Assembly (NCBI GenBank): GCA_017475265.1
Contig: JAFVFY010000008.1
Location: forward strand, 1 to 41,742
Direction of reading: 5' to 3'
Origin: Prevotella sp.
Lineage (GTDB): Bacteria; Bacteroidota; Bacteroidia; Bacteroidales; Bacteroidaceae
DNA: 41,742 nucleotides
The translations under genes and the position numbers were made by a program. The notes beneath the pieces are model-generated. The model had not been told where the DNA came from and searched no databases. It saw only the letters and a program-made list of their open reading frames with translations. This document shows positions 1 through 27,963 of this stretch, in pieces; position 1 is the first letter of the stretch, and every line of letters starts with the position of its first letter.

Positions 1-1205
1 GCACTAAGCTTCTGCGAAATGTTCGCGCTTACTATCTGCATGGCACGGGCCACAGGCATGAAGATGCCGCCCTTAATGCCTACGGGCTTGCGGAAATAGA
101 GATGCACCAGTTCCTTTTCCATTCTGGGTGCCTCGAACTGGCTGTTGTGCTGCTGCAGCCGCACGATCTCCTCCTGCGTGAACCAGTAGCGGAAGCCCTG
201 CTGGTAGAGCGCATACGCCTGCGAGTAGATGCCCTCGTAGTCGAAGGGATGCTCGCGGGGCGACTCTATCGACTCCACCTCGAAGGGCAGCCAGCGGCGG
301 TTGCCCGTGGGGTCAGAGAGGAACTGCACGTTATTGCCTGTGCCGCAGAACGAGGCGATATGCTTGCGGTGCTCATGGAAATGGGCGTATGCCGCCCGCT
401 CGTCAATCGAGGGCATCGTCACCGCCGCCTTCAACTGGTTCAGTTCGCGGGCGTTCATCGTGTCGAGCTCTTCGCAGCATACGAGGCCATACTGCGCCAG
501 TGTCAGCAGGTCGTCGCGCCCCATGCGACTCGCGTTGGTCTTCGTGTAGAAATACTGTCGCAGTTCCGGCGGCAGCAGGTAGTTGAACCACGTCGTCTTG
601 TACGATCCCTGCTCGCCGATGAGCACCAGGATCACGTTGTTCACCACCGTCTCGTCAATCCATCCGGCCACCATGCCCACCAGCCACTTCGTCAGGTACT
701 CCGCGAAGAGCATCTGCTCCTGCACGTCGCCCTTCACGCTCACCGAGACCGACATCGCCAAGATATGGTTCTGCCCGTCCCATCGCGGCAGGTGCTCCAA
801 GTAATAGCGGAACGGGTGATACGTCGGCACGAAGTCGCTCTCAATGACGCGGTACATGTCCTGCACACGCACAGGTTTCTGCTGCGACAGTTCTGCCCAC
901 AGCGAGTTGACGATACGGTCGTTAATGGGTTGCCACAAGCCCCCTAAGTTAGGGGGTTCTTTGCATAGCAAAGCGGCAGAGCCGAGCGGGGGGTCTGAAC
1001 AAGCGCAGAACATTTCCCCGTTCGAATCCCTGTCGGAGTCGAGCACTCTGCACTCCACCCTTCCCGTAATCACATTGTGCCGCAGGAAAATCCTGTCACT
1101 GAGGAACGCCTTGATGTCCTCCACCGAGGCATACACCTCGCGCCAGTTTTTCTTCCGTTCCTTCTGCTCGCCGTCGGCCTTCTTCTTTTTCTTCTTCTCC
1201 TCCAT
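1..1205 (-). CDS. VirE/D5-like primase-helicase domain protein (partial, C-terminus beyond left edge)
   Basis: About 400 residues are visible from the ATG at 1205-1203, and the frame stays open to the window edge. The N-terminus is very basic (a run of Lys). A P-loop of the form GEQGSYKT is followed by an acidic strand (LVCCEELD) and a GTGNNVQFLSDPTGNRRW segment. Together these are typical of the VirE/virulence-associated protein E family, superfamily 3/D5-like ATPases found in mobile elements and prophages of Bacteroidetes. By family it would unwind or prime DNA during element replication. The start is supported by a well-spaced promoter 40 bases upstream. Residues about 67-89 are encoded by an inserted REP-like repeat (938-1005) that keeps the frame. 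Family assignment is fairly sure; the exact element type is unknown. Confidence 0.8.
   Translation of the reverse strand, partial: MEEKKKKKKADGEQKERKKNWREVYASVEDIKAFLSDRIFLRHNVITGRVECRVLDSDRDSNGEMFCACSDPPLGSAALLCKEPPNLGGLWQPINDRIVNSLWAELSQQKPVRVQDMYRVIESDFVPTYHPFRYYLEHLPRWDGQNHILAMSVSVSVKGDVQEQMLFAEYLTKWLVGMVAGWIDETVVNNVILVLIGEQGSYKTTWFNYLLPPELRQYFYTKTNASRMGRDDLLTLAQYGLVCCEELDTMNARELNQLKAAVTMPSIDERAAYAHFHEHRKHIASFCGTGNNVQFLSDPTGNRRWLPFEVESIESPREHPFDYEGIYSQAYALYQQGFRYWFTQEEIVRLQQHNSQFEAPRMEKELVHLYFRKPVGIKGGIFMPVARAMQIVSANISQKLS
938..1005. repeat. REP-like element (family A, extended form) inside the virE-like gene
   Basis: The element has the palindrome CCCCCTAAGTTAGGGGG at one end and GGGGGTCTGAACAAGCG at the other. 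The same two blocks form the intergenic doublets at 22484-22597 and 30515-30640. Here about 30 extra bases lie between them and contain two small hairpins (CTTTGC/GCAAAG and CGGC/GCCG). The element is read through in frame by the minus-strand gene. Confidence 0.8.
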
Positions 1206-1244
1206 AGCTTTATGTCCTTATGTTGTTCTGTCAAATATCAGCTA

Positions 1245-1275
1245 CAAAGGTACACATAAAAAACAAGCCCGTCAA
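1245..1275 (-). promoter_or_regulatory. Bacteroidetes-type promoter for the virE-like gene
   Basis: On the minus strand a TTG (1275-1273) is followed 20 bases later by TACCTTTG (1252-1245), matching the Bacteroidetes -33/-7 consensus. The start codon lies 40 bases downstream. Confidence 0.7.
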
Positions 1276-1291
1276 GGGCATCCTTGTCGGG

Positions 1292-1335
1292 TTAATCGTC
1301 TGGTTAAGAAGTTAAGCGTCTGGTTAATCGCCTGG
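1292..1335. repeat. Three copies of a 12-bp repeat TTAAKCGYCTGG
   Basis: Units lie at 1292-1303, 1312-1323 and 1324-1335, with an 8-bp TTAAGAAG between the first two. They fill the space between the stop of the 242-aa gene and the virE promoter. No function is evident. Confidence 0.6.
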
Positions 1336-1342
1336 TAAAAAA

Positions 1343-2071
1343 TTAGTGTTTTTCAGGTGTGGTGAGCAGAATTATTAACCGCTCCACTATCGCCACCATG
1401 CGGTCGTAGGGTTCACGGCGTTTCATCAGTCCCGGATCGTAATGCCACTTTATGAAAGGCTTGTTGAACAGCGTCTGGCTGATGTTCTTCACCGATGAGC
1501 GCGAATATGCAGCGTTCACCCTGCACGGCATCACCCGTTTCATCAGCCGGTCGAAGGCGTCGAAGTCATCGTCGCCGTACATCCCCGCATCGCTCAGCAA
1601 TCGGAACACCGCCTGCCAGTGGCTCTTCTGGTTGAACAGCATCTCCTCCGTCCCGTTGTATCGCTCCTCCATCAGCCGCTCCAGACAGTAGTATATATGA
1701 CCGTCGGAAAGGTCAGCACCCTTCAGCAGTGCCGTGTCAGCACCCGTCGCCTTGTCAGGAACCATCTGCTGCATCACCGTCTGCTGTGCCACGCCCATCA
1801 TCGCCGTCATCATTTCACCCAGCCTGCGCTGCTCGCGCTCCTCATGTTTGCGCTGTTCAGCCCTCTCTGCAAGCTCTATCCTGGCCAATGCGTTGCGGTA
1901 TGCGCCTGGCCATTCGTCCATGAAGGAAAACGTGGCCGCCAGCCCTCTGATTTCATTACGCGCAACAGCCGGCCCGCCATTGGCCAGGTAGAACTCGACC
2001 GTCTCGTCCACCATCTTCTGAATGGTGGAGAACCCCGTGGGGCTTGCTCGTGTCTGTTGCTGCTGTGCCAT
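1343..2071 (-). CDS. Hypothetical protein, 242 aa, mobile-region type
   Basis: An intact minus-strand frame upstream of the virE-like gene, with which it could be co-transcribed despite the latter having its own promoter. I do not recognise a domain. The protein is predicted soluble. It has a charged, probably helical middle (ERAEQRKHEEREQRR, about residues 68-82) followed by an alpha-rich region ending near LLTTPEKH. There is no signal peptide or membrane segment. Codon use looks like a real gene and the opposite-strand frames look like shadows. Its neighbours suggest a role in an accessory element, but this is inference only. Confidence 0.65.
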   Translation of the reverse strand: MAQQQQTRASPTGFSTIQKMVDETVEFYLANGGPAVARNEIRGLAATFSFMDEWPGAYRNALARIELAERAEQRKHEEREQRRLGEMMTAMMGVAQQTVMQQMVPDKATGADTALLKGADLSDGHIYYCLERLMEERYNGTEEMLFNQKSHWQAVFRLLSDAGMYGDDDFDAFDRLMKRVMPCRVNAAYSRSSVKNISQTLFNKPFIKWHYDPGLMKRREPYDRMVAIVERLIILLTTPEKH

Positions 2072-2231
2072 AAGGCTGATGGTATTTATAGTTTTCTTTT
2101 GGATTGATGAGTGTCCTTAGTTCTGGTTTGTTTATTGATATGGCGGCATGATATAGCACGACACTGCCGACAGCCCTGCTTCTGCTGGCAGTGCCGCTGT
2201 TTATTCCGTTCTTCTTGGGTGTCATGTTCAT
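1956..2231 (-). CDS. Possible small protein upstream of the 242-aa gene (91 aa)
   Basis: Starting at the MNMTPKK methionine, this frame runs 91 residues and overlaps the 242-aa gene by 116 bases in another frame. For it: a promoter-like box lies just upstream (2261-2292), and the first 50 or so codons look coding (SINKPELRTLINPKENYKYH). Against it: the C-terminal third is antiparallel-looking filler inside the next gene. It could be a genuine short gene, the real N-terminus of a frameshifted longer gene, or chance. Confidence 0.3.
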   Translation of the reverse strand: MNMTPKKNGINSGTASRSRAVGSVVLYHAAISINKPELRTLINPKENYKYHQPYGTAATDTSKPHGVLHHSEDGGRDGRVLPGQWRAGCCA

Positions 2232-2260
2232 AGTTTTCAGACCGTGTGCGTAAACAGCTG

Positions 2261-2292
2261 CAAAATTACTAAACTTTTCCGACATTCCACAA
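2261..2292 (-). promoter_or_regulatory. Promoter-like element upstream of the minus-strand hypothetical genes
   Basis: TTG at 2292-2290, a 21-base spacer, then TAATTTTG at 2268-2261 on the minus strand. It would serve the small ORF starting at 2231 and the 242-aa gene at 2071. The stretch from 2293 to 2537, between this and the hsdM promoter, is A/T-rich; I see no gene, RNA or clear repeat in it. Confidence 0.5.
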
Positions 2293-2537
2293 TACTTTAA
2301 CAAGATTTTTTCTTTACCTCGTTGTGCATGAAAAATGTAAAAACTTTCACTTTGATTGACCTCGAGCCATTAATCCTAAATCATTGTTCCTGAAAGTCCA
2401 CTTTCCGTTTTCACTTTCTCATTTTTCCACCCGTTTTCGTAAACAAAAGTTTTTTTACCATCACCCTTGGTCACCTGCCAGATAATGACGTCCACAAGAC
2501 TTACGAAACCGTTTTTCCGCAATTTCTCCACAAATTA

Positions 2538-2569
2538 TTTGTTCGTTTCAGTATTTCTTTTTATCTTTG
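2538..2569 (+). promoter_or_regulatory. Promoter of the type I restriction-modification operon
   Basis: TTTG at 2538-2541, a 20-base spacer and TATCTTTG at 2562-2569. This is a close match to the Bacteroidetes consensus. It lies 36 bases before the leader ORF and about 125 bases before hsdM. Confidence 0.75.
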
Positions 2570-2605
2570 CAGCACAATGCAGTAGAAGTTACAAATAGGA
2601 CGATT

Positions 2606-2692
2606 ATGGCCACATGGAATAAAGAAACCTTGCCAAGAGAGAACGTGGCTGACCACATTATTGAGATTACTGAATTGCAATTAAAGGCTTGA
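2606..2692 (+). CDS. 28-residue leader ORF just upstream of hsdM
   Basis: An ATG (2606) 37 bases after the operon promoter opens a 28-codon frame, beginning MATWNKETLPREN and ending in TGA at 2690-2692. The hsdM ATG follows after one base (2694). The arrangement suggests translational coupling or a small regulatory peptide. The purine-rich AGGACG before its ATG is a plausible ribosome site, whereas hsdM has none of its own outside this ORF. No homology is recognised. It could be a remnant of a longer gene or a chance frame. Confidence 0.4.
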   Translation: MATWNKETLPRENVADHIIEITELQLKA

Positions 2693-2693
2693 T

Positions 2694-4208
2694 ATGGCAA
2701 AGAAGAAAAATGAAAACACCACCTCCATCGGTTTTGAGGATGCGATATGGCGGGCGGCTGATAAGCTCCGAGGCAACCTGAATGCTTCGGAATATGAAGG
2801 CGTGGTGCTGGGACTGATATTCCTGAAGTATATCAGCGACAAGTTCGAGGCGAAGTACCAGGAACTGCTGCAGGAGCCGGATGCAGACATTGAGGACAAG
2901 GACGAATACGAGGCCGACAATGTGTTCTTCGTTCCTCAGGAGGCTCGTTGGCAGGTCATCAGCCTTGCAGCCCATACGCCCCAAATAGGCAAGGTGATTG
3001 ATGATGCGCTGGAGGCTATCGAGCGCGAGAACACCAAGCTGAAGGGTGTATTGCCAGGCAACTATGCCCGTCCCGAGTTGGACAAGCGCCGCCTGGGCGA
3101 CGTGGTGGACCTCTTTACCAACATCCACATGCTGGCATCGGGCGACGAAAAGGATTTGCTGGGCCGTGTCTATGAATACTGCCTGCAGAAGTTCGCCTCG
3201 ATGGAGGGCAAGAACGCCGGGGAGTTCTATACGCCCAGCTGCATCGTGCGTACCATCGTCGAGGTGCTGCAGCCCTACGAAGGCCGTGTCTATGACCCCT
3301 GCTGTGGCTCTGGCGGCATGTTCGTGCAGAGTGCGAAGTTCATCTATAACCACCAGAAGGACATCAATAACATCAGCGTCTATGGCCAGGAGGCTAACCC
3401 CTCGACATGGAAGATGGCGCACATGAACGTTGCTATCCGTGGACTGGAGGCCAATCTCGGCAAGAGCTATGCCGACACCTTCTTCAACGACCAGCACCCC
3501 ACGTTGAAGGCTGACTTCATCATGGCCAATCCTCCTTTCAATCTCAGCGACTGGGGCGCAGACAAGTTAGAGAAGGATGCCCGCTGGAAGTTCGGACTGC
3601 CGCCCGCAGGCAATGCCAACTTCGCTTGGATGCAGCACATGATTCACCACCTCTCGCCCATTGGACGCATCGGCTTGGTATTGGCCAATGGCGCATTAAG
3701 CAGTCAGACAGGAGGTGAGGGCACTATCCGCCAAAAGATAGTAGAGGCCGACTTGGTAGAGGGTATCATCGCCCTGCCTTCGCAGTTGTTCTATTCGACT
3801 GGTATTCCCGTATCGCTGTGGTTCCTCTCGCGCAGCAAGCAGCAGAAGGGTAAGGTACTGTTTATCGATGCTCGCAATATGGGTACAATGGTCACCCGTG
3901 CCGTTCGTGAGCTGATGGAGCCAGACATCCGAAAGATTGCTGACACCTTTGAGGCCTTCCGCAATGGCACCCTTGGCGATGAGGCAGGCTATTGTGCCGT
4001 CAAGACCTTACAGGACATCGCAGCGCAGGACTACATTCTGACTCCAGGCCGTTATGTAGGAATAGCCGAGCAGGAAGATGATGGCGAGCCGTTTGCGGAG
4101 AAGATGCAGCGGCTCACCTCAGAACTCAGCGGACTATTTGTAGAAAGTCACCGCTTGGAGGATGAGATTAAGAAGCAGTTAGGAAATATTGGATTTAAGA
4201 TTGAATAA
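2694..4208 (+). CDS. hsdM: Type I restriction enzyme, methyltransferase subunit HsdM
   Basis: The 504-aa length is typical for HsdM. The N-terminal helical HsdM_N domain occupies about residues 10-140 ([15 protein letters not shown]...). The N6-adenine methyltransferase core follows, with GEFYTP at 176-181, the SAM-binding loop DPCCGSGG at 201-208 and the catalytic NPPF at 279-282. With HsdS it methylates adenines in the bipartite target; with HsdR added it restricts unmodified DNA. It is first in the operon after the small leader ORF. All catalytic motifs are intact. GC content is clearly higher than in the four genes that follow. Confidence 0.97.
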
Positions 4209-4218
4209 AAAGGATACA

Positions 4219-5052
4219 ATGAAGAAAGAAATCATAGAACAGTTATACAGCGCTTTCGAGCAGGCTGCGCTTGAAGTAGATGGTGTTGAATGTTGGAGTG
4301 CAAGAGAGTTACAGACATTGCTTGGCTATAGCCTTTGGCAGAACTTTACTAAAGTTATAAATAAAGCCAAAGTCGCTTGTGAGAATGTTAATCAGTCAAC
4401 ATCCGACCATTTTATTGACGCCAATAAAATGGTTGAACTAGGTAGTGGCGCTCAGCGTGAGATAGAAGACATGATGCTTACACGCTATGCCTGCTATTTG
4501 GTGGCTCAAAATGGAGACCCACGTAAAGAGCAGATTGCCTTTGCACAGACCTATTTTGCCGTGCAGACGCGTAAAGCAGAACTCATAGAGAAACGCCTGC
4601 TGGAAGTGGAGCGTGTAAAGGCTCGTGCCAAGTTACAAGAGACAGAGAAGATACTTTCAGGTGTATTGTATGAACGTGGTGTCAACGATAAGAGTTTTGC
4701 TGTCATACGCTCGAAAGGCGACCAAGCCTTGTTTCGTTTGAATACAGCTACATTGAAGCGAAAGATGGGTGTTCCTGCCAGTCGTCCATTGGCAGACTTC
4801 CTTCCTACTATCAGCATTAAGGCCAAGGACTTTGCTGCTGAAATGACGAGCGTCAATGTCCAGGCAAAGGACTTGCAAAGTGAGACGATGATAGCCAAAG
4901 AGCATATTGACAACAACGCTGCAGTTCGCCGTATGCTCTTGGAACGTGGCATCGTGCCAGAAAACCTTCCCGCTGCTGAGGATGTGAAGAAGGTGGAACG
5001 CAGGCTGGCCAGCGAAGAAAAGAAGGCTATAGAGAACAAGAAGAAAAAGTAA
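4219..5052 (+). CDS. dinD: DinD-like DNA damage-inducible protein
   Basis: 277 residues from the ATG at 4219, chosen because it follows hsdM by 10 bases and has an AAAGGA ribosome site seven bases upstream; a longer frame would overlap hsdM. The signature [13 protein letters not shown] (about 25-37), a DHF segment, then [13 protein letters not shown] and [10 protein letters not shown] match E. coli DinD, an SOS-induced protein reported to disturb RecA filaments. The C-terminus is Lys/Glu-rich and probably helical. In this operon it could modulate repair of restriction breaks or act as an accessory regulator. That is inference; co-location of dinD-type genes with type I systems is known from other bacteria. 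Confidence 0.88.
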
Positions 5053-5062
5053 ATTCCCATTT

Positions 5063-6226
5063 ATGGAAGAGAAAAAGAATATAGCAAATAAAACAGCGAC
5101 ACCATCGTTTGTGTATCGTGACGGGATGACTGCTGACAATGAGTATATAGAATGGCTGGCGGATGTAAAAGCGCGATTTCGTCAAAGCCAGATAAAGGCT
5201 TCTGTCAGAGTGAACACTACTATGCTTGAATTCTATTGGAGCGTAGGACGTGACCTGGTACGTTTGCGGGCAGAAGAGCGATGGGGTGCAGGAGTCGTGA
5301 AGCAGTTTGCCCTCGATATGCGTCAGGCATTTCCTAATGAAACCGGCTTCTCAGACACCAATGTAAAGTATATGAAACGTTGGTACTCGTTTTATTTTGA
5401 AAGAGTTACAAAAGGTCAGCAAGTTGCTGACCAATTAGCAGGGGATGAAAAAAGCCAACGACTCGTTGGCCAAATTGAGGTTGCAGAAAAAGGTCAGCAA
5501 GTTGCTGACCAATTGGAAATGCCGGAATCGTTTGGAAAAGTTCCCTGGTTTCATCATGTCCAAATCTTCTGTCATTGCGCTACTCTCGACGAGGCTCTCT
5601 TCTATATAAATAAGGTAATAGAAGAGGGATGGAGCCGCAGTTGGTTGGAAGATCAAATAGCTGCCAACCTCTTTACATCACAAGGTTCAGCCATTACGAA
5701 TTTCAATCAGACCCTTCCTGCGCCACAAAGCGACTTGGCCAATGAACTGCTGAAAGATGAGTACAACTTTGAATTCCTCACAATGAAAGCAAAATACGAC
5801 GAGCATGACTTGGAAGAAGCTCTTGTCGCCAATATAACCCGGTTTTTGCTAGAATTGGGCAAGGGCTTTGCATACGTTGGTCGTCAGATGGAGCTGCGTA
5901 TGGACGAAGAAACGACCTTCTTTCCTGATTTGGTGTTCTATCATATCCCACAGAAGCGGTATATTATCATTGAACTGAAAGCTGTGAAGTTTATGCCAGA
6001 GTTCGCAGGTAAGTTAAATTTTTATGTGACAGCTGCAGATAAATTACTAAAATGTGCAGATGATAATCCATCTGTAGGACTACTGATTTGTAAGACTGCT
6101 AAGAAAACCATCGTAGAGTGGTCGCTGCAGGATATACAGAAGCCTCTGGGTGTCGCTACTTATCAGTTGCAAGAGGTTGTCGAACGCACCATCGCAGAGT
6201 TAGAAAGCAGAAAGAATGTAGAATGA
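5063..6226 (+). CDS. YhcG/DUF1016 family protein with PD-(D/E)xK nuclease domain
   Basis: 387 aa. The N-terminal DUF1016_N helical domain lies at about residues 25-125 (EIEWLADVK-like start, FYWSVGRDL, WGAGVVKQFALDMR). The C-terminal nuclease domain lies at about 150-375, with FPDLVFYH then YIIIELK as the putative D...ExK metal site, preceded by GFAYVGRQ. YhcG-like proteins are often found inside or next to type I restriction loci; their exact role is not settled. The linker between the two domains (about residues 116-152) is made of palindrome-encoded repeats with KGQQVADQL occurring twice. The last base overlaps the hsdS start (ATGA). Confidence 0.88.
   Translation: MEEKKNIANKTATPSFVYRDGMTADNEYIEWLADVKARFRQSQIKASVRVNTTMLEFYWSVGRDLVRLRAEERWGAGVVKQFALDMRQAFPNETGFSDTNVKYMKRWYSFYFERVTKGQQVADQLAGDEKSQRLVGQIEVAEKGQQVADQLEMPESFGKVPWFHHVQIFCHCATLDEALFYINKVIEEGWSRSWLEDQIAANLFTSQGSAITNFNQTLPAPQSDLANELLKDEYNFEFLTMKAKYDEHDLEEALVANITRFLLELGKGFAYVGRQMELRMDEETTFFPDLVFYHIPQKRYIIIELKAVKFMPEFAGKLNFYVTAADKLLKCADDNPSVGLLICKTAKKTIVEWSLQDIQKPLGVATYQLQEVVERTIAELESRKNVE
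5414..5510. repeat. Three perfect palindromes in the linker of the YhcG-like gene
   Basis: GGTCAGCAAGTTGCTGACC (9+1+9) occurs at 5414-5432 and again at 5492-5510. A different palindrome, GCCAACGACTCGTTGGC (8+1+8), lies between them at 5454-5470. All are read in frame and lie in the interdomain linker. Confidence 0.85.
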
Positions 6227-7440
6227 TGGAAGAGTGGAAGATATATAAGTTGGAGGATGTCTGCACTGCATTAAGTGACGGATTGCACAAAGCACCTAAG
6301 TTTATAAACGGAGGTGACTACATCTTTGTGAATGCGAAAAACATAAGCAATGGTTTTATCGTTGACAATGATCCAACCAAGAAGTCTACTTACGAAGAAT
6401 ATCTGAAGTATTCATCGCCACTAAATGAAACAACAGTTTTATATTCTATTGATGGTACAATTGGAAATATAGCATTGTATAGGGGAGAAAAATGTATTTT
6501 GGGGAAAGGCGCTTGCTACCTGAACGCCAATCCAGCGTTGTTAGACAGGATGTATCTTTATTATGAGTTACAGGCTCCACGCTTCAAGTCATATATAGAT
6601 AAGATGTCTACAGGCTCTACTATCAAGCATATTTCTCTAAAAACGATGAGAAATTATGAAATGAGAGTTCCTTCAACAAGTACCCAACAGCAGATTGTTT
6701 CCGTCCTCAAATCCCTTGATGACAAAATCGAGGTGAATAGGCGGATAAATGACAATTTAGAGCAGCAGGCACAGGCGTTGTTTAAGTCGTGGTTTGTGGA
6801 CTTCGAACCATTCAAGGATGGTGAGTTTATTGATAGTGAATTGGGAATGATTCCGAAAGGGTGGAGAGTAGGAACCGTATATGAATACATTGATGTTATT
6901 TATGGCGCTCCTTATAAATCTTCATTATTCAATGAAGAAAAAGACGGACTGCCTCTAATTAGAATCCGTGATTTAAAAACCAATGCACCTCAATTCTATA
7001 CTCCTGAGATACTGCCTAATACAGAATACATTGAGGCTGGTGATGTTGTCGCAGGAATGGATGCAGAGTTTGTCCCCTATCTATGGTTAGGTGATAAAGG
7101 TGTATTAAATCAACGATGTTGTAAGTTCAAAGGCAAGAATGACGCAATATGCAACTACTACATTCTTTTCCTTGTTAAGCCTGAACTTGAATATGTACAA
7201 AACTATAAAACAGGCACAACAGTAAGCCACTTGGGGAAATCAGATATTGACAGATTCAAATTGATAACCCCACCAATAGATGTAGTTTTGGCATTCTCGA
7301 AAATCGTAAATTCAATGAAAGAAGAAGTGGTGAACCGAGCTCTTGAATCCCGCCGCCTCGCGAATCTCCGTGACACTCTCCTTCCGAAGTTGATGTCAGG
7401 AGAACTAAAAGTAAATGAAGTAGAAAAAGAATTATCTTAA
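6223..7440 (+). CDS. hsdS: Type I restriction enzyme, specificity subunit HsdS
   Basis: The ATG at 6223 overlaps the previous stop by four bases, so translation is probably coupled; a second ATG follows directly. The 405-aa protein has the usual two-half layout. Target-recognition domain 1 spans about residues 1-150. A conserved helical spacer (VLKSLDDKIEVNRRINDNLE) and FKSWFVDFEPF follow at about 160-200. Domain 2 starts at GWRVGTVYEYI and ends in a second conserved helix (NLRDTLLPKLMSGEL). It sets the DNA sequence recognised by HsdM and HsdR. Only one hsdS copy is visible, with no inverted partner or recombinase, so shuffling-type phase variation is not supported within this window. It is strongly A/T-rich. 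Confidence 0.95.
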   Translation: MMEEWKIYKLEDVCTALSDGLHKAPKFINGGDYIFVNAKNISNGFIVDNDPTKKSTYEEYLKYSSPLNETTVLYSIDGTIGNIALYRGEKCILGKGACYLNANPALLDRMYLYYELQAPRFKSYIDKMSTGSTIKHISLKTMRNYEMRVPSTSTQQQIVSVLKSLDDKIEVNRRINDNLEQQAQALFKSWFVDFEPFKDGEFIDSELGMIPKGWRVGTVYEYIDVIYGAPYKSSLFNEEKDGLPLIRIRDLKTNAPQFYTPEILPNTEYIEAGDVVAGMDAEFVPYLWLGDKGVLNQRCCKFKGKNDAICNYYILFLVKPELEYVQNYKTGTTVSHLGKSDIDRFKLITPPIDVVLAFSKIVNSMKEEVVNRALESRRLANLRDTLLPKLMSGELKVNEVEKELS

Positions 7441-7492: not shown

Positions 7493-8614
7493 ATGATGAG
7501 CGACGAACAGAAATATAATATCCAAGGGCTAGACGAGTACATCCGTCAGGGCGAGCCACAGCAACGTGAACGTAGTGAAGCGTGGAAGGTGGCTATAGGT
7601 TTGCAGCAGGTTGACAGGCTTCAGACCTCTGACTATTTGTTGGATACTGCCAAGCGCCATATTGAAGGCGATATCAGTATTGGCGAAGCAAAGCAACTGA
7701 TAGACTCTTATTATCAATCAGCCTCAGGGCGCAAAGATATAGAAAACGACCGTACAGAGGAGGCTGACAAGGTGGCTGCTCGCATCACAGAGCTGATAGA
7801 AGAAAAGACATTCTCTTTTACGCCAGCACAGCTGATTTCTATCCACCGCAGATTGTTTGAGGGCATCTATAAGTTGGCAGGCAGAATTCGTGACTATAAT
7901 ATCACCAAAAACGAATGGGTGCTGGGCGGTAAGACAGTATATTACGCCAGCTACGACACCATCAGCGAAACACTGGACTATGATATGGGGCAGGAACGCC
8001 AGTTTGATTATTCGTCCATGAATATCGATGAGACAATCCGTCATCTGACTCGTTTCTGTGCCAACCTGTGGCAGATACATGCTTTCTGTGAAGGAAACAC
8101 GCGTACAACAGCCGTGTTTATGATTAAGTATTTGCGCACGCTGGGATTTAACGTAGTTAACGATGTGTTTACAGAAAATTCTTGGTATTTCCGCAATGCA
8201 TTGGTAAGAGCAAACTATAGTGATTTGACTCAAGGTATTACAGAGACTACTGTTTATTTGGAGCGCTTCTTCCGCAGTATGTTACTTGGTGAAGAGCACG
8301 ATCTTAGGAATAGGATTATGCATGTGGATTGGGGTAAAGTAGAGGGTGAGACAACCCTTCAAAGTGCAAAACAGGAAGTCAAAAGTGCAAAAATAGGCGA
8401 AGAACTGCCTCCAAAGTGCAAAAATTGCACTTTAGAAGAGGTGGCAGTTCTCCGTATAGTGCAAAAGAATCGTTATGCCACCCAGAAAGAGATTGCCGCA
8501 GAGATAGGTAAGTCGGAACGCACTGTTAAATCTATTACCATCGCCTTGCAGGATAAGCAGATCCTGAAGCGAGTGAATGGTAAACGAAATGGATATTGGG
8601 AAATTGAAGAATAA
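7493..8614 (+). CDS. Fic-domain protein with C-terminal winged helix
   Basis: 373 aa. The Fic core is at about residues 100-270 with the motif HAFCEGNTRTT at 196-206. This corresponds to HxFx(D/E)GNxRxxR, but the last Arg is replaced by Thr. Known Fic enzymes transfer AMP or related groups to target proteins; loss of the second Arg may alter nucleotide handling. After a linker holding AAAGTGCAA repeats, a winged-helix DNA-binding domain follows at about 315-370 (YATQKEIAAEIGKSERTVK). The gene sits between hsdS and hsdR with its own promoter. It could regulate the operon or restrain restriction; this is inference. The start could also be the ATG three bases on. Confidence 0.88.
   Translation: MMSDEQKYNIQGLDEYIRQGEPQQRERSEAWKVAIGLQQVDRLQTSDYLLDTAKRHIEGDISIGEAKQLIDSYYQSASGRKDIENDRTEEADKVAARITELIEEKTFSFTPAQLISIHRRLFEGIYKLAGRIRDYNITKNEWVLGGKTVYYASYDTISETLDYDMGQERQFDYSSMNIDETIRHLTRFCANLWQIHAFCEGNTRTTAVFMIKYLRTLGFNVVNDVFTENSWYFRNALVRANYSDLTQGITETTVYLERFFRSMLLGEEHDLRNRIMHVDWGKVEGETTLQSAKQEVKSAKIGEELPPKCKNCTLEEVAVLRIVQKNRYATQKEIAAEIGKSERTVKSITIALQDKQILKRVNGKRNGYWEIEE
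8360..8433. repeat. AAAGTGCAA repeats and palindrome in the fic linker
   Basis: AAAGTGCAAAA-type blocks recur at about 8361, 8382 and 8413. The last forms a perfect 9+3+9 palindrome: AAAGTGCAA at 8413-8421 and TTGCACTTT at 8425-8433. It is in frame, exactly between the Fic and winged-helix domains. Confidence 0.8.
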
Positions 8615-8631: not shown

Positions 8632-11600
8632 ATGAGTACCTACAAGTTCACCGAAGACAGCTATGAGCATTCGTTGATTGCACTATTCCAAGAATTGGGC
8701 TACGCCTACGAATGTGGCTATGATGTGGAGCGTGACTACAGGAATCCCTACTATGAGGAGGACTTGCGGGACGTTCTGCAACGGCTAAACCCGATGCTGA
8801 GTGCGGATATACTGAACGAAGCCTTCCGACTGGTGACCCACGTCAACGAGGGAACGCTGGAGCAGCGGAACGAGCAGCTGATGGACTACGTGCAGAATGG
8901 TGTGGAGGTAAAGTACTCAGAGGACGGACGCCCGAAGACGGCACTCGTGAAGCTGGTGAACTACGACAGCCCCTTGCAGAACAAATTCAAGGTCTGCAAC
9001 CAGTGGACGGTTATAGAGTATGAGAAGATACGCTGCGATATGGTGGTTTTCGTCAACGGTCTGCCGATGGTGGTGATAGAATTGAAATCGCCCAGCAATG
9101 AGAATGTAGAAGAGGATGCTGCCTACCTGCAAATCAAACAGTATCAGCAGAAGTGCCCCTCGCTGTTTGTATATAACGCTTTCTCCGTCATCAGCGACCA
9201 ACTGGTTTCTAAGGCCGGCACCATCACCGCCAAGGAGAACCGCTACATGGAATGGAAGGCTCCGAGTGAACGAGCGCCATCAAGATTTCTTGAAATGGCC
9301 GAGTGTGAGGAGGCTCGACCGAAAGTCAAGAGCGTGGACGGAACGGTAGAATCAAGTTCGTTTGCCGACTACGAGACCTTCTTCAATGGCATCTTCAAGA
9401 AGGAACGCCTCATCGACATCCTGCAGAACTTCATCTGCTTCGACCATAAGGATGGGCGCACGGCAAAGATCATGGGAGCCTATCACCAGTACTTTGCCGT
9501 GAACAAAGCTTTGGTGAAGACAGACAAGGCCATTGGCGGTGACGGAAAAATTGGCGTGTTCTGGCATACGCAGGGCAGCGGCAAGTCGTTGTCTATGGTG
9601 TTCTATGTGCATCTTTTGGTGCAACGCTATCCGCAATGTACCATCGTGGTGGTGACCGACCGCAACGACCTGGACCAGCAGCTGTATGAGCAGTTTGCTG
9701 GCTGTCAGAGTTTCTTGCGTCAGGAGCCGCAGCGCGTAGGCTTCGACCTGAACGAAAAAGGCAAGCTCACCAAGACAGCAGGACGCGAGGACTTGGTGCG
9801 AAAGCTGAAAGACCTGCGGACGGGCGGCATCATCTTCACGACGATTCAGAAGTTTTGTGCAAGCCGAGAGGAGAGCGAGCTTGCTTGCTCTTCCGAGGCG
9901 CAGCCAAAACTCGCCAAAGGCAAGTTTGAGGAAGGCACAGGGCTGCTCTCCGACAGGGAGAACATCATCGTGATTACCGACGAGGCCCACCGCTCGCAAT
10001 ATGGCGATGAGCATTGGGATGAAAAGGCCGAGAAGATGAAGAAAGGCTTTGCGCTGCTGATGCGTGAAGCCCTGCCCCGAGCCTCGTTCATCGGGTTTAC
10101 GGGTACGCCCATTTCCCAACGCGACCGCGACACCAAGGAGGTGTTTGGCGACTATATCGACATCTACGACATGACGCAGGCTGTGGCCGACGGTGCCACG
10201 AAGGAAGTGTATTATGAGAGTCGTGTGGTGAAACTGAACCTGAACGACGAGGCCTTGCGGAAGCTGGACGAAGCGTTTGACGACCTTGTCACCGAGGGGG
10301 CTACCGATGAGCAAATACAGAAAGCCCGAAGGGATAACAGCGGACTGAAAGAGATATTGTGCCATCCTGACACGATTGACAGTCTGTGCCGGGACATCGT
10401 GGAGCACTACGAGAAGAACCGCCAGTATGAACTGACGGGCAAGGCGATGATTGTGGCCTACAACAAAGAGGCTGCCGTGAAGATGTACCGCCGGATGCTG
10501 GAGCTGCGCCCCGACTGGACGGAGAAGATGCACGTTGTGGCAAGTGCTGCCAATACCGACAAGGAAGAATGGCATGATGTGATAGATGCGCGGCGTAACA
10601 AGGAATATGCTGCGCTGTTCAAGGATGACGAAAGCCCGATGAAGATAGCCATCGTGGTGGATATGTGGCTCACAGGATTCGATGTGCCAAGCCTTGCCAC
10701 GATGTATGTCTATAAGCCTATGAAGGAACACAACCTGATGCAGGCCATAGCCCGTGTGAACAGAGTGTTCCCTGAAAAGGAAGGTGGTCTGGTGGTTGAC
10801 TATGTGGGAATAGCCAGTGCGCTGAAGAAAGCGATGCAGGACTATACGCAACGCGACAAGAAGCATTTTGGCGACCCTGACATTGCCAAGACCGCTCTGG
10901 TGAAGTTCCGGGAGAAATTAGAGATATGCCGCGACCAGCTGCACGGTTTCGACTACGAGGCGTGGTATGAAGGCTCTGACCCTGAGCGCAGCCGACTGAT
11001 AACGGCTGGCGTGAACTTCATGCTGGAACGTGACAAGGACGAAAGACGAAAGTCGTTCATAGAGCATAGTCAGTTGCTGCATAACGCCCAGACGCTATGC
11101 AAATCGCTGCTGACTGACCACGACAAGCGCGAGGTGGCTTTTATGGATGCTGTGAGGGTGATGCTGGTAAGAGTGAGTGCTACAGGCACGAAGATTTCCA
11201 AGCACGACATCAACGAGCGCATATCGCGACTGCTGGAGCAGAGCCTGCAAAGCCAAGGCGTGCAGGTGCTGACCAATGTAAAGTTCTCTCTCTTCCACGG
11301 TGCCTTCCTGGCAGAAATAAAGAACATGAAGGAGCGGAATCTTGCCCAGAAAATCCTGGAGGGCTTGATAAGGGAAAAGATTCGCAACTTTGAACGGACG
11401 AACATCGTACAGAGCCTGAAATACAGCGAGATGATGAACAAAGCCCTGTCAAACTATCTGAAAGGTCTGCTGACGAATGAAGAGGTCATTGCCGAGTTGC
11501 TGCGTATAGCAGAAGAAATAAGGAAGTGTGAGGAAGAGGGCAACGAACTGGGACTGACCATAGAAGAAAAAGCCTTCTATGATGCACTCAGTTCGCCTGA

Positions 11601-15560: not shown

Positions 15561-20655
<5,095 letters not shown>

Positions 20656-20670
20656 CCATCTAAGCTCTAT

Positions 20671-20754: not shown

Positions 20755-20779
20755 AGTCAATCATCTATAGTCAACACAC

Positions 20780-21664: not shown

Positions 21665-21689
21665 AGTAACCTGCCTTATTATAAGGTAA

Positions 21690-21806: not shown

Positions 21807-21823
21807 GAAAAGAGTCTGTAAAA

Positions 21824-22474
21824 TCAGAGCGACTCTACGAAAGTGCGGGTCACCTGGAAAGAGTTTTGGGCAATGGTGTTCCAGAAGTCGTGATACTGCG
21901 AGGCATCGGTGTCGCGTAGGGGAATGTCGCTGATGACACGGAAGGATATGAAGGGCACCTTGTTCAGGTAACACGTCTGGGCGATGGCACACGACTCCAT
22001 GTCTACTGCACGGGCTTCGGGGAAAAGACCCACTATCTCACGCATCTTCTCCTTGGTATCGACAAACCAGTCGCCAGTGACGATAAGGCCGGGGTGAATT
22101 GACAATTGAGTATTGGCAATTGACAATTGCTGCGCCTTACCCAACAGGTAGGGGTCTGCCTTGAAGCGAGCGGGGCAACCCTGCACCTGTCCGTAGACGG
22201 TGGTGTCATCAATGGCCTTGCCGCAATACACATCGTGATAGCATAGCTCTGTGCTCACCACCACGTCTTGAATGTTCACTTCGTCGCCATTGCCCCCAGC
22301 ACATCCGCTGGAGATAATCACGTCGGGCTTTTCCTCGTTGATGAGCTGCTGCGCCCCAAGGGCAGCGTTAACTTTACCGATGCCGCTCTTACGCACGAAT
22401 ACCTGACTGTCTGCAAATACTTGGCGGAGCTGCTCCAGCTCCTTGTCCATAGCTACAATGATTCCGATTTTCAT
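21824..22474 (-). CDS. mtnN: 5'-methylthioadenosine/S-adenosylhomocysteine nucleosidase
   Basis: 216 aa, slightly short for the family. E12 in MDKELE is the usual catalytic acid position. SSGCAGG (about 56-62) binds ribose/adenine, AVDMESCAIAQ carries the substrate-binding Glu, and ISDIPLRD has the catalytic Asp. It cleaves MTA and SAH (and 5'-deoxyadenosine), recycling adenine and relieving methyltransferase inhibition. It is last in a minus-strand operon behind nhaC and the CoA-transferase. About eleven residues (QLSIANTQLSI) come from an AATTGAC heptamer array. The sequence before the start is a REPIN-like doublet whose AGGGGG lies 11 bases from the ATG. Confidence 0.93.
   Translation of the reverse strand: MKIGIIVAMDKELEQLRQVFADSQVFVRKSGIGKVNAALGAQQLINEEKPDVIISSGCAGGNGDEVNIQDVVVSTELCYHDVYCGKAIDDTTVYGQVQGCPARFKADPYLLGKAQQLSIANTQLSIHPGLIVTGDWFVDTKEKMREIVGLFPEARAVDMESCAIAQTCYLNKVPFISFRVISDIPLRDTDASQYHDFWNTIAQNSFQVTRTFVESL
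22097..22129. repeat. AATTGAC heptamers inside mtnN
   Basis: AATTGAC, AATTGAG, TATTGGC, AATTGAC, AATTG in 7-bp register, 33 bp (11 codons), so the frame is kept. It lies in the loop before the GLIVTGD strand. Confidence 0.8.
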
Positions 22475-22483
22475 AATTCTCTT

Positions 22484-22597: not shown

Positions 22598-22600
22598 AGT

Positions 22601-23875: not shown

Positions 23876-23893
23876 CAATTCTCAATTCTCAAA
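23876..23893. repeat. TTGAGAA heptamers filling the CoA-transferase-nhaC gap
   Basis: On the coding (minus) strand the whole 18-base gap reads as TTTGAGAATTGAGAATTG, directly followed by the nhaC ATG. No Shine-Dalgarno sequence is present. Confidence 0.7.
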
Positions 23894-25396: not shown

Positions 25397-25400
25397 GATT

Positions 25401-25430
25401 TATAATTTACAGATTTACGATTTACAATTT
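25401..25430. repeat. GTAAATY heptamers in the CoA-transferase leader
   Basis: On the coding (minus) strand AAATTGTAAATCGTAAATCT-type units lie between the -7 box (25436-25443) and the ATG at 25396, so they are transcribed as the 5' leader. Confidence 0.75.
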
Positions 25431-25435
25431 GAGTG

Positions 25436-25443
25436 CAAAGGTA
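25436..25443 (-). promoter_or_regulatory. -7 box (TACCTTTG) of the CoA-transferase operon
   Basis: A perfect TACCTTTG on the minus strand, 39 bases before the start codon. No convincing TTG at -33. Confidence 0.6.
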
Positions 25444-25506
25444 TAAAGTTTTAAGGAGTTAAGAGATATTTCATGGGGGTGTTTAACGCAGATTAACGTA
25501 TGTCGC

Positions 25507-25537
25507 TTGGTGGTGTACCTACTTTTGCGTAATTTTG
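25507..25537 (+). promoter_or_regulatory. Promoter of the AmpG-like gene, with two overlapping -7 boxes
   Basis: TTG at 25507-25509, 20 bases, TAATTTTG at 25530-25537. A second possible box, TACTTTTG, lies at 25520-25527. It is divergent from the CoA-transferase promoter. Confidence 0.65.
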
Positions 25538-25552
25538 CACCGCTTATAATCT

Positions 25553-25581
25553 ATCGTAAATCGAAAATTCGTAAATCGAAA
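25553..25581. repeat. GTAAATC-type repeats abutting the AmpG-like start codon
   Basis: GTAAATCGAAAATTC followed by GTAAATCGAAA runs directly into the ATG at 25582, downstream of the promoter. The array is therefore the 5' leader, in the same orientation as in the CoA-transferase leader. Confidence 0.75.
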
Positions 25582-26856
25582 ATGAAAACCCGTCGTTCTC
25601 CCTGGTCGTGGATTCCGACCCTTTACATGGCCGAGGCCCTGCCCTACGTGGCGGTGATGACCATCTCGACCATCATGTATAAAAAATTGGACATCTCGAA
25701 CACCGACATTGCCCTCTATACCGGCTGGCTCTACCTGCCTTGGGTCATCAAGCCTTTCTGGAGTCCTTTCGTAGACCTGGTCAGAACGAAGCGCTGGTGG
25801 TCAGTCACCATGCAGTTCCTCATCGCCATCGGCTTTGCAGCCATCGCCTTGGCCCTGCCCACGTCGATGTTCTTCCGCCTCACGCTGGCAGCCTTCTGGC
25901 TCGTGGCCTTCACATCGGCCACCCACGACATTGCCGCCGACGGCTACTACATGCACGCCCTCGACGACCACGAGCAGTCACTCTACGTAGGCATACGCAG
26001 TACGTTCTATCGCATTGCCTCCATCTTGGGACAGGGACTTTTGGTTGTCCTTGCCGGACACCTGGAGGACTCTACGGGCGACATACCATTCGCTTGGACC
26101 GTCACTTTCAGTGTGATGTCGGCTTTTTTCCTGCTTACCGCCCTCTACCATCAGTTCATCCTGCCACGTCCAGCCTCTGACCATGCTGCTACCGACATGA
26201 AGGCCAGCACCATAGCCCGCGACTTCCTCGATACATTCAAGACCTTCTTCACGAAGGAGAATGCCCTCGTAGCCATTCTCTTCATGCTGCTCTACCGTCT
26301 GCCGGAGGCTCAGCTGGTGAAGCTCATCAACCCCTTCATGCTCGACCCCGTGGACAAGGGCGGACTGGGACTGACCACCGAACAGGTAGGTATCGTCTAT
26401 GGTACCGTGGGCATCATCGGACTCACTATTGGCGGCATCCTCGGAGGCATAGCAGCAGCACATGGAGGACTGAAACGCTGGCTGTGGCCTATGGTTTGCG
26501 CTATTACCCTACCCGACCTCGTCTATGTCTACCTGAGCTACGTACAGCCCGACAGCCTGCTGATGGTGAACGCATGTGTCTTCATCGAGCAGTTCGGCTA
26601 CGGCTTCGGCTTCACCGCCTATATGCTCTACCTCATCTACTTCTCCGAAGGCGCGCATAAGACCGCACACTATGCCATCTGTACCGGCTTCATGGCTCTG
26701 GGCATGATGCTCCCTGGTATGATGGCTGGTTGGCTCCAGGAAACCATCGGATACCCGCACTTCTTCCTCTGGACCATCGTCTGCTGCGTAGCCACCTTCG
26801 CCGTGACAGCACTTATCAAAGTCGACCCAGAGTTCGGAAAGAAGAAACGACCATAG
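25582..26856 (+). CDS. MFS transporter, AmpG-like (muropeptide permease family)
   Basis: 424 aa from the ATG at 25582; a longer frame would begin inside the promoter. Twelve predicted membrane segments. The start (PWSWIPTLYMAEALPYVAVMTISTIMYKKL) and THDIAADGYYMHALDDHEQSLYVGIRST resemble AmpG permeases, which import anhydro-muropeptides for cell-wall recycling. A soluble loop of about 30 residues follows segment 6 (PRPASDHAATDMKA...). Bacteroidetes carry several AmpG-like permeases, and this one may use another substrate. It is followed by folA with no promoter between, so the two are probably co-transcribed. Confidence 0.85.
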   Translation: MKTRRSPWSWIPTLYMAEALPYVAVMTISTIMYKKLDISNTDIALYTGWLYLPWVIKPFWSPFVDLVRTKRWWSVTMQFLIAIGFAAIALALPTSMFFRLTLAAFWLVAFTSATHDIAADGYYMHALDDHEQSLYVGIRSTFYRIASILGQGLLVVLAGHLEDSTGDIPFAWTVTFSVMSAFFLLTALYHQFILPRPASDHAATDMKASTIARDFLDTFKTFFTKENALVAILFMLLYRLPEAQLVKLINPFMLDPVDKGGLGLTTEQVGIVYGTVGIIGLTIGGILGGIAAAHGGLKRWLWPMVCAITLPDLVYVYLSYVQPDSLLMVNACVFIEQFGYGFGFTAYMLYLIYFSEGAHKTAHYAICTGFMALGMMLPGMMAGWLQETIGYPHFFLWTIVCCVATFAVTALIKVDPEFGKKKRP

Positions 26857-26862
26857 AACATT

Positions 26863-26939
26863 TTAGACCTCAGACTTTAGACTTCAGACTTTAGACTTTA
26901 GATTTCAGACTTTAGACTTTAGACCTCAGACTTTAGACA
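26863..26939. repeat. Eleven tandem heptamers TYAGACY before folA
   Basis: Exact 7-bp register (TTAGACC, TCAGACT, TTAGACT and so on), ending two bases before the folA ATG. It is the reverse complement of the AGTCTRA array before the cation exporter, so its orientation relative to the downstream gene is opposite. Confidence 0.9.
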
Positions 26940-26941
26940 TT

Positions 26942-27493
26942 ATGACCATAAATATTATTGCTGCCGTGGCCCGCAACCGCGCCATAGGCTTTCAGAACAA
27001 GCTGCTTTACTGGTTGCCCGACGACATGAAGCGTTTCCGTCAGCTCACCACCGGTAACACTATCCTCATGGGGCGCCGCACCTTTGAGAGCCTTCCCATG
27101 CGTAGTCAAATAATAAATGGTCAAACAGTAAATACTCGCGCCCTACCCCATCGCCGCAACTGTGTACTTACCCGCACTATTACGGAACTGCCTGGTTGCG
27201 AGTGTTTCCTAGATTGGGAGTCGTTCATCGCCACTTGCCGTGAGGATGAGGATATATATATAATAGGTGGAGCGAGCATCTACGCCGCGCTCCTCGACAA
27301 GGCAGACCGCCTATGCCTTACAGAGGTCGACGACACCCCAGAGGTTGCCGACGCTTTCTTCCCCGCAACCAAACTATGCAACTGGAAAGAAACCTTTCGC
27401 GAGCACCATCCCGCCGACGAGCGCCACGCCTACCCCTTCGATTTCGTAGACTATCAGCGGTTTTTTGACTTACCTGCCTCAGTGGCAGAATAG
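26942..27493 (+). CDS. folA: Dihydrofolate reductase
   Basis: 183 aa. INIIAAVARNRAIGFQNKLLYWLPDDMKRFR gives the active-site acid (D27 in LPDDM) and the nicotinamide loop. MGRRTFESLP binds NADPH. IIGGASIYAALL and TEVDD complete the fold. It makes tetrahydrofolate for thymidylate and purine synthesis and is the trimethoprim target. Compared with usual DHFRs an insert of about 12-14 residues (RSQIINGQTVNTR) separates ESLP from ALPHRRN; it is encoded by a repeat-like stretch. The 3' end overlaps the convergent exbD gene by 40 bases. The start codon lies two bases after a heptamer array and has no Shine-Dalgarno sequence. Confidence 0.95.
   Translation: MTINIIAAVARNRAIGFQNKLLYWLPDDMKRFRQLTTGNTILMGRRTFESLPMRSQIINGQTVNTRALPHRRNCVLTRTITELPGCECFLDWESFIATCREDEDIYIIGGASIYAALLDKADRLCLTEVDDTPEVADAFFPATKLCNWKETFREHHPADERHAYPFDFVDYQRFFDLPASVAE
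27103..27136. repeat. GTCAAAYARTAAAT repeats inside folA
   Basis: AGTCAAATAATAAAT and GGTCAAACAGTAAAT are two approximate copies in direct orientation. They encode the additional loop of the reductase. Confidence 0.6.
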
Positions 27494-27963
27494 TTAATGC
27501 GTAGGGCAAAGCTTTGTTGTAATGTCTGTTTGATTTCAGCGATGATGCTCATGGGCACGTCGCGGTCAGCCTTCAGGCTCACCACCATGCGGCTGCGGTC
27601 TTCTTCGTTCATACGCGACCGTTCCTCTTCCACATAGTCACGAATGTCGGCTATAGTGGCCAGTCGGTTGTTCAGTTGAATGAAGAAGGTGTCTCGATTG
27701 ATTTGAGAATTACGGTTTGAGGATTGAGATTTGAGGTTTGCCTGGCGTCCTACGTATATCTGGGTAACAGCCGACTTATGAGCTAGTTTCTGTACCTCCG
27801 TTCCATTCGGCAAGTCATAGTGCACGAGCAAATCCACATCGCGCATGTGGGTGACAATCATAAAGAAGAAAAGCACGGTGAAGATAAGGTCGGGCAACGC
27901 CGCAGTGTTCAACCCCGGCATCTTGCGCTCCCGCCTACGAAATACTCCACGTCTTAACTTCAT
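27454..27963 (-). CDS. exbD: ExbD/TolR-type biopolymer transport protein (second copy)
   Basis: 169 aa. A single N-terminal membrane helix (ALPDLIFTVLFFFMIVTHM, about 22-40) carries the conserved Asp (D25) that conducts protons with ExbB. A periplasmic domain follows, with the usual VSLKADRDVPMSIIAEIKQTL near the end. The start overlaps the upstream exbD stop by four bases. A heptamer-derived peptide (NLKSQSSNRNSQIN) sits in the periplasmic domain at about residues 76-89. The last 13 codons overlap folA on the other strand. With ExbB it would energise TonB or another envelope partner; no tonB is in the window. Confidence 0.9.
   Translation of the reverse strand: MKLRRGVFRRRERKMPGLNTAALPDLIFTVLFFFMIVTHMRDVDLLVHYDLPNGTEVQKLAHKSAVTQIYVGRQANLKSQSSNRNSQINRDTFFIQLNNRLATIADIRDYVEEERSRMNEEDRSRMVVSLKADRDVPMSIIAEIKQTLQQSFALRINYSATEAGKSKNR
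27697..27739. repeat. TTTGAGR heptamer-like repeats inside exbD
   Basis: On the plus strand TTTGAGA, TTTGAGG, ATTGAGA and TTTGAGG units, partly out of register. They are read on the minus strand as CTCAAAT and encode a Ser/Asn-rich peptide. Confidence 0.7.

Follow-up and report, generated by a model that had tools for sequence, protein, structure and literature searches.

The stretch of DNA analysed here, called the window throughout, is a 41,742-nucleotide contig (JAFVFY010000008.1) of a Prevotella sp. with a genome of 4.75 Mb, to which all whole-genome site counts refer. A sequence-only reading of the window had reported at least eleven patches of short repeats lying in reading frames without breaking them, and had explained them as tolerated insertions of dispersed repeats. 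All eleven are present inside open frames, exactly where they had been placed or a few bases off (Table 1), and the explanation as a whole is partly supported. The patches are two separate phenomena with different histories: class 1 consists of repeat-like inserts in a virE-like gene, lacZ, mtnN, folA and exbD, and class 2 of private palindromes in yhcG, fic and hsdR. A single phenomenon for all of them was ruled out, as class 2 is private to its own genes while class 1 recurs in the genome.

The three genes with private palindromes belong to one type I restriction-modification (RM) operon with the order hsdM, a putatively dinD-like gene, yhcG, hsdS, fic and hsdR. The product of yhcG, the main subject of this analysis, matches DUF1016_N (PF17761, residues 34–205, 108.3 bits) and the PDDEXK nuclease domain YhcG_C (PF06250, residues 228–370, 176.3 bits), against cut-offs of 32.8 and 32.5 bits, respectively, and is thus a member of the YhcG family. 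Its frame holds three dyads, and the stretch bearing them is a length-variable insertion within the DUF1016_N match, ahead of the nuclease domain. The palindrome GGTCAGCAANTTGCTGACC has two exact copies in the genome, both within yhcG; the next best site has three mismatches, and at that tolerance the reversed control likewise yields three matches per strand.

Recurrence of the patches was assessed by BLAST of each whole patch (E ≤ 0.01, counting matches elsewhere) against an own-genome sample made up of the window and 60 further stretches (1,234,765 bp, hereafter the 1.23-Mb sample; coding fraction 0.816 by a simple purpose-made gene caller). The sample contigs were picked for known sites of REP-A, a repetitive extragenic palindrome (REP), and densities of arrays and repeats in it are therefore biased. 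The patches of yhcG and of the second hsdR insert gave one match each, both weak, and those of fic and of the first hsdR insert none, so that the sequence-only reading, which a lack of recurrence elsewhere in the genome was to refute, fails for these three genes.

Dyads in yhcG across genes and phyla

The genes compared comprise the best 30 loci of the genus (150 genomes searched), the genome's own paralogues and the best 30 loci of 118 genomes of the phylum, together with 12 plasmid genes and one phage gene, hand-picked for taxonomic spread, and three of seven aligned E. coli alleles; 68 of 69 loci yielded an open reading frame (ORF). The resulting 77 distinct yhcG genes come from Bacteroidota, Proteobacteria including E. 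coli K-12, Actinomycetota, Cyanobacteriota and a Wolbachia phage. In-frame dyads of at least 19 bp stand ahead of the nuclease domain in 73 of them. Palindromes with arms of at least 8 nt were counted in 62 distinct genes and compared with synonymous shuffling, which keeps the protein and the codon set fixed (200 shuffles per gene): there are 67, against 3.7 expected, and 64 of the 67 lie at 20–40% of the ORF.

A looser unit, defined as at least seven of eight pairs at ±2 to ±9 about a one-base centre, gives the same picture. Units centred on codon position 1 number 133 in the 77 genes against 16.9 after shuffling (10 shuffles), whereas those centred on positions 2 and 3 stay close to expectation (25 versus 21.2 and 15 versus 15.8). 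The dyad-bearing stretch, at 20–45% of the ORF, contains 119 of the 133 units, with one unit in 39 genes, two in 24, three in eight and four in two. In these stretches the same detector finds 17 units per 1000 codons, as compared with 0.32 in the same phase (0.72 and 0.64 in the others) for a background of 646 ORFs from this genome, which include one yhcG paralogue. Arms of at least 12 nt occur in 16 of 66 yhcG genes and in 1 of the 646 ORFs. By eye, the consensus is AATT, eight variable positions, one position, the centre, one position, eight variable positions and AATT, the left side being AAAA in many genes.

Among the plasmid and phage genes, 11 of 13 have a unit in the stretch, the exceptions being Nocardioides and Nostoc 5183, and six have a perfect arm of at least 8 nt (Paraburkholderia, Roseomonas, Curtobacterium, Nostoc TCL26-01, Pseudomonas ANT_J16 and Wolbachia phage WO). 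Three of the 12 plasmid genes adjoin hsdS/hsdR or pglX/pglZ of a bacteriophage exclusion (BREX) system, a setting in which a control site carried by the gene itself would probably be of use. The phage relatives came from a phage collection; a peptide-pattern search for YhcG relatives in viral contigs confirmed none.

In E. coli K-12, yhcG carries the 33-nt palindrome AAAGATTTGGCAGACGCTGTCTGCCAAATCTTT, which is matched in 3526 of 5426 E. coli genomes at 7053 places, that is, at one site on both strands in nearly all. All of the 30 matches listed fall in yhcG or in fragments of it; short or degenerate copies would escape BLAST at this length. Thus, in both species checked, this one and E. coli, the dyads are private to yhcG. 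Strain L363 has a second, perfect dyad with an imperfect counterpart in K-12. Some partial E. coli BLAST matches, considered as domain swaps, were ruled out as such on reading, being truncations beside IS1 or another transposase gene (L354 at 1501; L355 and L356 at about 2906); their breakpoints lie inside the 33-nt palindrome or at its edge.

In the literature consulted, no known function is given for E. coli yhcG, and an antisense RNA, G0-10703, is described that overlaps the 5' leader of the gene and is activated in stationary phase (PMC7967276). A search of literature on DUF1016, YhcG, COG4804 and PDC-S02, with subscription literature mostly outside its scope, found no report of palindromes in yhcG.

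Co-variation and possible readers of the dyads

Co-variation was followed in 34 representative genes with less than 60% nuclease identity, whose units had been picked for pairing at positions 2–9. Each of these positions shows three or four Watson-Crick types across the representatives, and the symmetry extends to positions outside the picking: complementarity of the ±1 pair is seen in 20 of the 34, where codon usage predicts 12.3 (P=0.0024), and in the 77-gene set pairing at ±10, ±11 and ±13 amounts to 60, 61 and 72% versus 32, 32 and 37%. Half-sites within one gene differ on average by 1.36 of 7 nt (60 pairs), those of different genes by 3.90. Dyad symmetry also forces a coupling in the encoded peptide, for among 317 motif-matching units in 120 close proteins the combinations Q-A/V and H-G occur 176 and 140 times, H-A once and Q-G never. 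The yhcG dyads are kept beyond what the protein sequence demands, they lie in one length-variable stretch, and the copies in a gene share their half-site.

The palindromes could act at the level of single strands, as hairpins in mRNA or single-stranded DNA that govern, for instance, self-cleavage, stability or the pausing of translation. With arms as long as 17 bp around a centre of 1 or 3 nt they would indeed fold, and the ±1 pair is non-complementary in 14 of the 34 representatives, as a 3-nt loop would allow. However, this pair, which is impossible in a hairpin loop, is complementary more often than codon usage predicts. The mismatches do not point to RNA either: G.T is not above A.C (20 versus 33, with 14 others; 7, 6 and 2 in the representatives), and an RNA hairpin, which tolerates G.U pairs and would show an excess of them, was rejected on this account. 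The lack of a G.U bias and the pairing beside the centre together favour, without proof, a double-stranded DNA site, and a hairpin function appears unlikely.

The co-varying in-frame dyads may accordingly be described as candidate sites at which a symmetric protein, most likely a YhcG dimer, binds double-stranded DNA, a reading in which our confidence is evenly divided. One to four dyads (19 bp, often 27 bp with AATT ends) in the yhcG frame, ahead of the nuclease domain, would be read as duplex DNA by a symmetric protein; more tentatively, the reader could be YhcG's own N-terminal domain, DUF1016_N, which is presumably helix-turn-helix-like, and its binding might repress or time transcription from inside yhcG. 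Such a control site would travel with yhcG as the gene moves between restriction and BREX operons. We regard it as possible, albeit somewhat doubtful, that each YhcG nuclease carries its own private recognition sequence in its own gene, as a self-matched cassette moving across bacteria and phages; if true, reader and site would be linked in one frame, so that new YhcG specificities would arise and move together. Consistent with joint movement, in the E. coli alleles L359 and L361 a block made up of the dyads and the preceding segment has diverged from K-12 by 28–40%, the remainder of the gene by 0–12%; since one block holds both, dyads and preceding segment move together in these strains. L360 has the same allele block in a frameshifted gene.

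Several results weigh against this assignment. The E. coli swap block holds both dyads and segment because the two adjoin, and over 73 genes the distance between sites tracks the nuclease domain (partial r 0.32) more closely than the N-terminal segment (0.09, P=0.036), so that the reader is not pinned down by this comparison; the proposition that the N-terminal segment clearly determines the site was dropped in view of that weak partial Mantel value. No upstream copy of the site was found in 69 yhcG genes (10.81 of 18 positions matched, versus 10.68 in the upstream regions of other genes), which leaves ordinary promoter autoregulation unsupported. No solved relative of YhcG was found in the PDB, and an AlphaFold model of YhcG (24 close homologues) was too poor to use, with a mean predicted local distance difference test (pLDDT) score of 44. 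By the stricter measure of arms, just 44 of the 62 genes individually reach p ≤ 0.05, and four of the 77 have no unit in the stretch, namely the own paralogues L282 and L283, Nocardioides and Nostoc 5183. Of the three plasmid genes adjoining RM or BREX genes, that of Nostoc 5183 has no unit and that of Methylomonas no perfect palindrome. Regarding L282, its stretch contains two even-centred palindromes (arms of 11), which the odd-centre detector misses. Taken together, YhcG is the likeliest guess for the protein that would read its dyads.

Alternatively, the dyads might be a substrate, with YhcG cutting or nicking its own palindrome, as cruciform or duplex, in self-limitation or in a homing-like gene exchange. 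By profile comparison and, weakly, by fold recognition, the nuclease domain of YhcG is related to the Holliday-junction resolvases of archaea (PMC1189080), the E. coli allele block swaps around the dyads, and the two kinds of truncation end at the palindrome. A nuclease that cuts its own gene should nevertheless be costly, and the breakpoints represent two events, possibly chance, so that this option seems rather improbable. Neutral upkeep receives still less credence: an old, functionless palindrome would be kept symmetric by template switching, in which both arms change together. Such quasipalindrome correction perfects imperfect palindromes and alters their two arms jointly. Because the place is fixed across phyla, it does not readily explain the dyads, which occupy the same stretch in 73 of 77 genes while the rest of yhcG is almost empty of arm-8 palindromes; moreover, the AATT flanks and the ±1 pair are kept as well, and other ORFs of the genome show no such excess. 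That all patches are tolerated in-frame insertions of dispersed repeats, in the manner of Rickettsia palindromic elements, fits the heptamers and REPs, with 76 strictly in-gene period-7/14 arrays in the 1.23-Mb sample and a clean folA insert, but is highly improbable as a common account, given that the yhcG and second hsdR palindromes occur nowhere else in the genome at the mismatch limits searched, the fic palindrome occurs once in the 1.23-Mb sample, and the yhcG dyads are conserved in position across phyla.

Among known systems, the C-protein operators of RM systems and intragenic operators such as lac O2 are dyad sites bound by a helix-turn-helix (HTH) dimer, with self-control of a restriction-related gene; yhcG differs in that the candidate site lies inside the frame of its putative reader and is absent upstream. 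Rickettsia palindromic elements share with the yhcG dyads that palindromic DNA is read in frame without breaking genes, but they form dispersed families of about 100–150 nt in genes and spacers (PMC4316617), whereas the dyads measure 19–27 bp, occur only in their own gene where checked and keep their place over phyla. Nor do the dyads show the presence and absence among homologues that is typical of Rickettsia-type insertions, since a dyad is found in 73 of 77 genes and copy number is what varies. In distant phyla, homologues encode corresponding peptides at this position by different DNA, and that DNA is palindromic too; for yhcG, then, the dyads are a conserved feature of the gene and not a tolerated insertion of a dispersed repeat. 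PARCELs (palindromic amphipathic repeat coding elements, DUF285) are also coding repeats of variable sequence with dyad symmetry, and are tandem 75-nt repeats, many of them in membrane proteins (PMC2996958); in yhcG, by contrast, short dyads lie in a nuclease gene, to which Pfam assigns DUF1016_N and YhcG_C only.

Genes for YhcG, an unassigned candidate defence family (PDC-S02), are widespread, 7253 related proteins having passed a search, and some lie in restriction or BREX operons. A DNA site conserved within yhcG offers a handle on function, as the sequence of each gene reveals the likely ligand, and synonymous co-variation across a dyad provides a way of finding protein-binding sites hidden in coding sequence.

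Palindromes in fic and hsdR

Table 1. Positions of yhcG, fic and the in-frame patches in the window
Feature	Positions	Strand	Remarks
yhcG	5063..6226	+	inside type I RM operon; PADLOC candidate PDC-S02
yhcG dyad 1, AAAAGGTCAGCAA-G-TTGCTGACCAATT	5410..5436		perfect arms 5414-5432
yhcG dyad 2, GCCAACGA-C-TCGTTGGC	5455..5471		half-site differs from dyad 1
yhcG dyad 3	5488..5514		identical to dyad 1 over 27 nt; perfect arms 5492-5510
fic, Fic protein with winged HTH (PF02661, PF13412)	7493..8614	+	Pfam
fic in-frame palindrome, AAAGTGCAAAAATTGCACTTT	8413..8433		between Fic and HTH domains
fic further half-sites	8361-8371, 8382-8392		same half-site as fic palindrome
hsdR insert 1, 72 nt in frame, contains CATCAAGATTTCTTGAAATG	9256..9327	+	weakly palindromic
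hsdR insert 2, 72 nt in frame, hairpin	9850..9921	+	AAGTTT at both ends
REP-A insert in virE-like gene	938..1012	-	frame open over 3-1217, runs off window
lacZ REP-B half 1, CCCCCACCCCATCCGAAGGAGGGG	17434..17462	+	L387 has same loop
lacZ REP-B half 2, CTCCCCTCCTTTGGAGGGG	17535..17564	+	L387 has same loop
lacZ heptamer array (NSNLKSQIS)	19779..19811	+	L383 has longer array at same site
lacZ C-terminal REP-A-like remnant	20487..20550	+	71% to REP-A head
mtnN loop heptamer array (QLSIANTQLSI)	22097..22129	-	period-7
folA in-frame insert, 36 nt, MRSQIINGQTVN	27097..27132	+	15-nt near-duplication
exbD loop heptamer array, NLKSQSSNRNSQI	27697..27740	-	period-7

The fic palindrome occurs once in the 1.23-Mb sample, and its 11-nt half-site has three copies in fic and three elsewhere. 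It is present in 9 of 28 Fic ORFs, in the closest group only. Synonymous shuffling gives p ≤ 0.017 for eight of the nine carriers, including that of the window, and p=0.083 for the remaining one; co-variation says little in this case because the nine have nearly identical palindrome sequences. Adjoining a winged-HTH domain as it does, the fic palindrome may work like the dyads of yhcG.

The first hsdR insert is a clean addition of 72 nt, absent from all 27 relatives (of 29) that cover the site; it folds weakly (z −1.5), and its core is single in the 1.23-Mb sample. The second is absent in 27 of 29 relatives and present at the same site in L204 and in a distant HsdR of 33% identity (L225), where both the outer and the inner stem show paired changes; the hairpin has z values of −2.1 in the window, −3.5 in L204 and −3.7 in L225. 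The 21-nt core of this second insert is single genome-wide at up to three mismatches (control 0). It resembles a Rickettsia-type element in being a clean in-frame palindromic insert with empty-site homologues, and is unlike one in having no dispersed genomic copies; from sequence comparison, it looks like a rare mobile palindromic element.

As for the neighbouring genes, the one at 4189-5052, between hsdM and yhcG, matches PADLOC candidate PDC-S13 and is the gene we take to be dinD-like. The operon thereby holds three candidate defence cargo genes (PDC-S13, PDC-S02 and PDC-S72).

Repeat-like inserts and arrays

The sequence-only reading had held that several of the patches belong to the families that occupy intergenic gaps, and that the patches are tolerated in linkers or loops. 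The first part stands for virE, the heptamer and REP-B patches of lacZ, exbD, mtnN and folA, which recur, and not for yhcG, fic and hsdR; the second is borne out for heptamer and REP-like patches, which lie in variable stretches, and not for yhcG, where the dyads are conserved and specific to the gene. It is supported that the heptamer and REP-like patches of virE, lacZ, mtnN and exbD are dispersed repeats tolerated in variable stretches, and that the folA patch is likewise repeat-like, although similar sequences elsewhere are fewer. Clean indels whose length is divisible by three are seen in folA (36 nt) and in the two hsdR inserts (72 nt each), whereas exbD and mtnN have stretches of variable length.

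The virE patch has 81 matches elsewhere in the 1.23-Mb sample, and the REP tail GGGGGTCTGAACAAGCG has 86 sites at up to two mismatches in the genome versus one for the reversed control. The two lacZ REP-B patches have four and six matches; they and the virE patch are REPs by their many copies with a palindromic head. Among 17 aligned lacZ relatives, 15 cover the first REP-B site, and L387 alone has the REP-B pair at the same two places, while L389 and L392 carry, by eye, heptamer-like arrays in the second loop. The lacZ heptamer patch has 39 matches in the 1.23-Mb sample; the C-terminal remnant has none there and is absent from all 17 aligned relatives.

Period 7 exceeds the shuffled control in exbD, mtnN and lacZ (Tandem Repeats Finder; lag-7 p<0.001 for all three). 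In mtnN, with four matches for its patch, 14 of 42 distinct loops of the genus, including that of the window, are period-7 at p ≤ 0.01, and by eye they are built from several different units. The mtnN of L261 has a 91-residue loop in which several heptamer-like arrays are split by GCTACCGC/GCGGTAGC inverted repeats, with the frame open. The exbD patch has 29 matches, and its loop varies in length over the 80 best relatives, which are Prevotellaceae, many from rumen genomes; the piece is shorter in the closest of them (L031, 87%), and in L056 and L066 another repeated peptide occupies that position. In folA, 49 of 50 matches can be aligned at the site, all without the insert (the fiftieth is a wrong fragment), and read FESLP-KGALPNRRN or nearly so, where the window reads FESLP-MRSQIINGQTVNT-RALPHRRN. 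The folA patch has five similar places elsewhere in the 1.23-Mb sample; a heptamer array was ruled out for it (lag-7 p=0.24).

The 1.23-Mb sample contains 261 period-7/14 arrays, of which 108 are intergenic, 53 touch a gene end, 76 are strictly in-gene and 24 are weakly supported. The 76 are spread over 61 genes (about 62 per Mb of sample), a few being ordinary coding repeats, for instance at 10624-10650 in the window. Periods 11 and 22 contrast with this, as only 12 of 128 arrays are strictly in-gene and 101 are intergenic. Three heptamers make 21 nt, so that an array free of stop codons in one frame is free of them in the other two frames of that strand, a frame neutrality that probably helps heptamer arrays to survive in genes. 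TAACTGA heptanucleotide arrays, for which we take STRR to be a related label, are also period-7. One study cites repeat-rich genomes, in most of which heptamers outnumber every other class, and reports such arrays as mostly intergenic (PMC4679880); here, by comparison, 76 of 261 are strictly in-gene, with many different units. This in-gene density makes the genus well suited to studying how simple repeats feed protein loops.

REP-B has 25 sites in the 1.23-Mb sample, eight of them strictly in-gene, and REP-A 43 heads and 37 tails, none strictly in-gene. REP-A and REP-B resemble REPs and bacterial interspersed mosaic elements (BIMEs) in forming paired palindromes in spacers and some genes, a likeness that does not extend to yhcG, fic and hsdR. 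Elsewhere in the window, 11- and 22-bp arrays lie mostly in spacers (28718-28800, 30044-30158, 38391-38548 and 41488-41585), and a heptamer array at 25553-25588 lies at or ahead of the start of a transporter gene, on its 5' edge. Finally, of three matches to a Y1 transposase in the genome, two are weak; the best, L409 (C37 7392-7733), is presumably a candidate REP mobiliser (RAYT, REP-associated tyrosine transposase), and its contig also carries a REP-A pair at a distance of about 36 kb.

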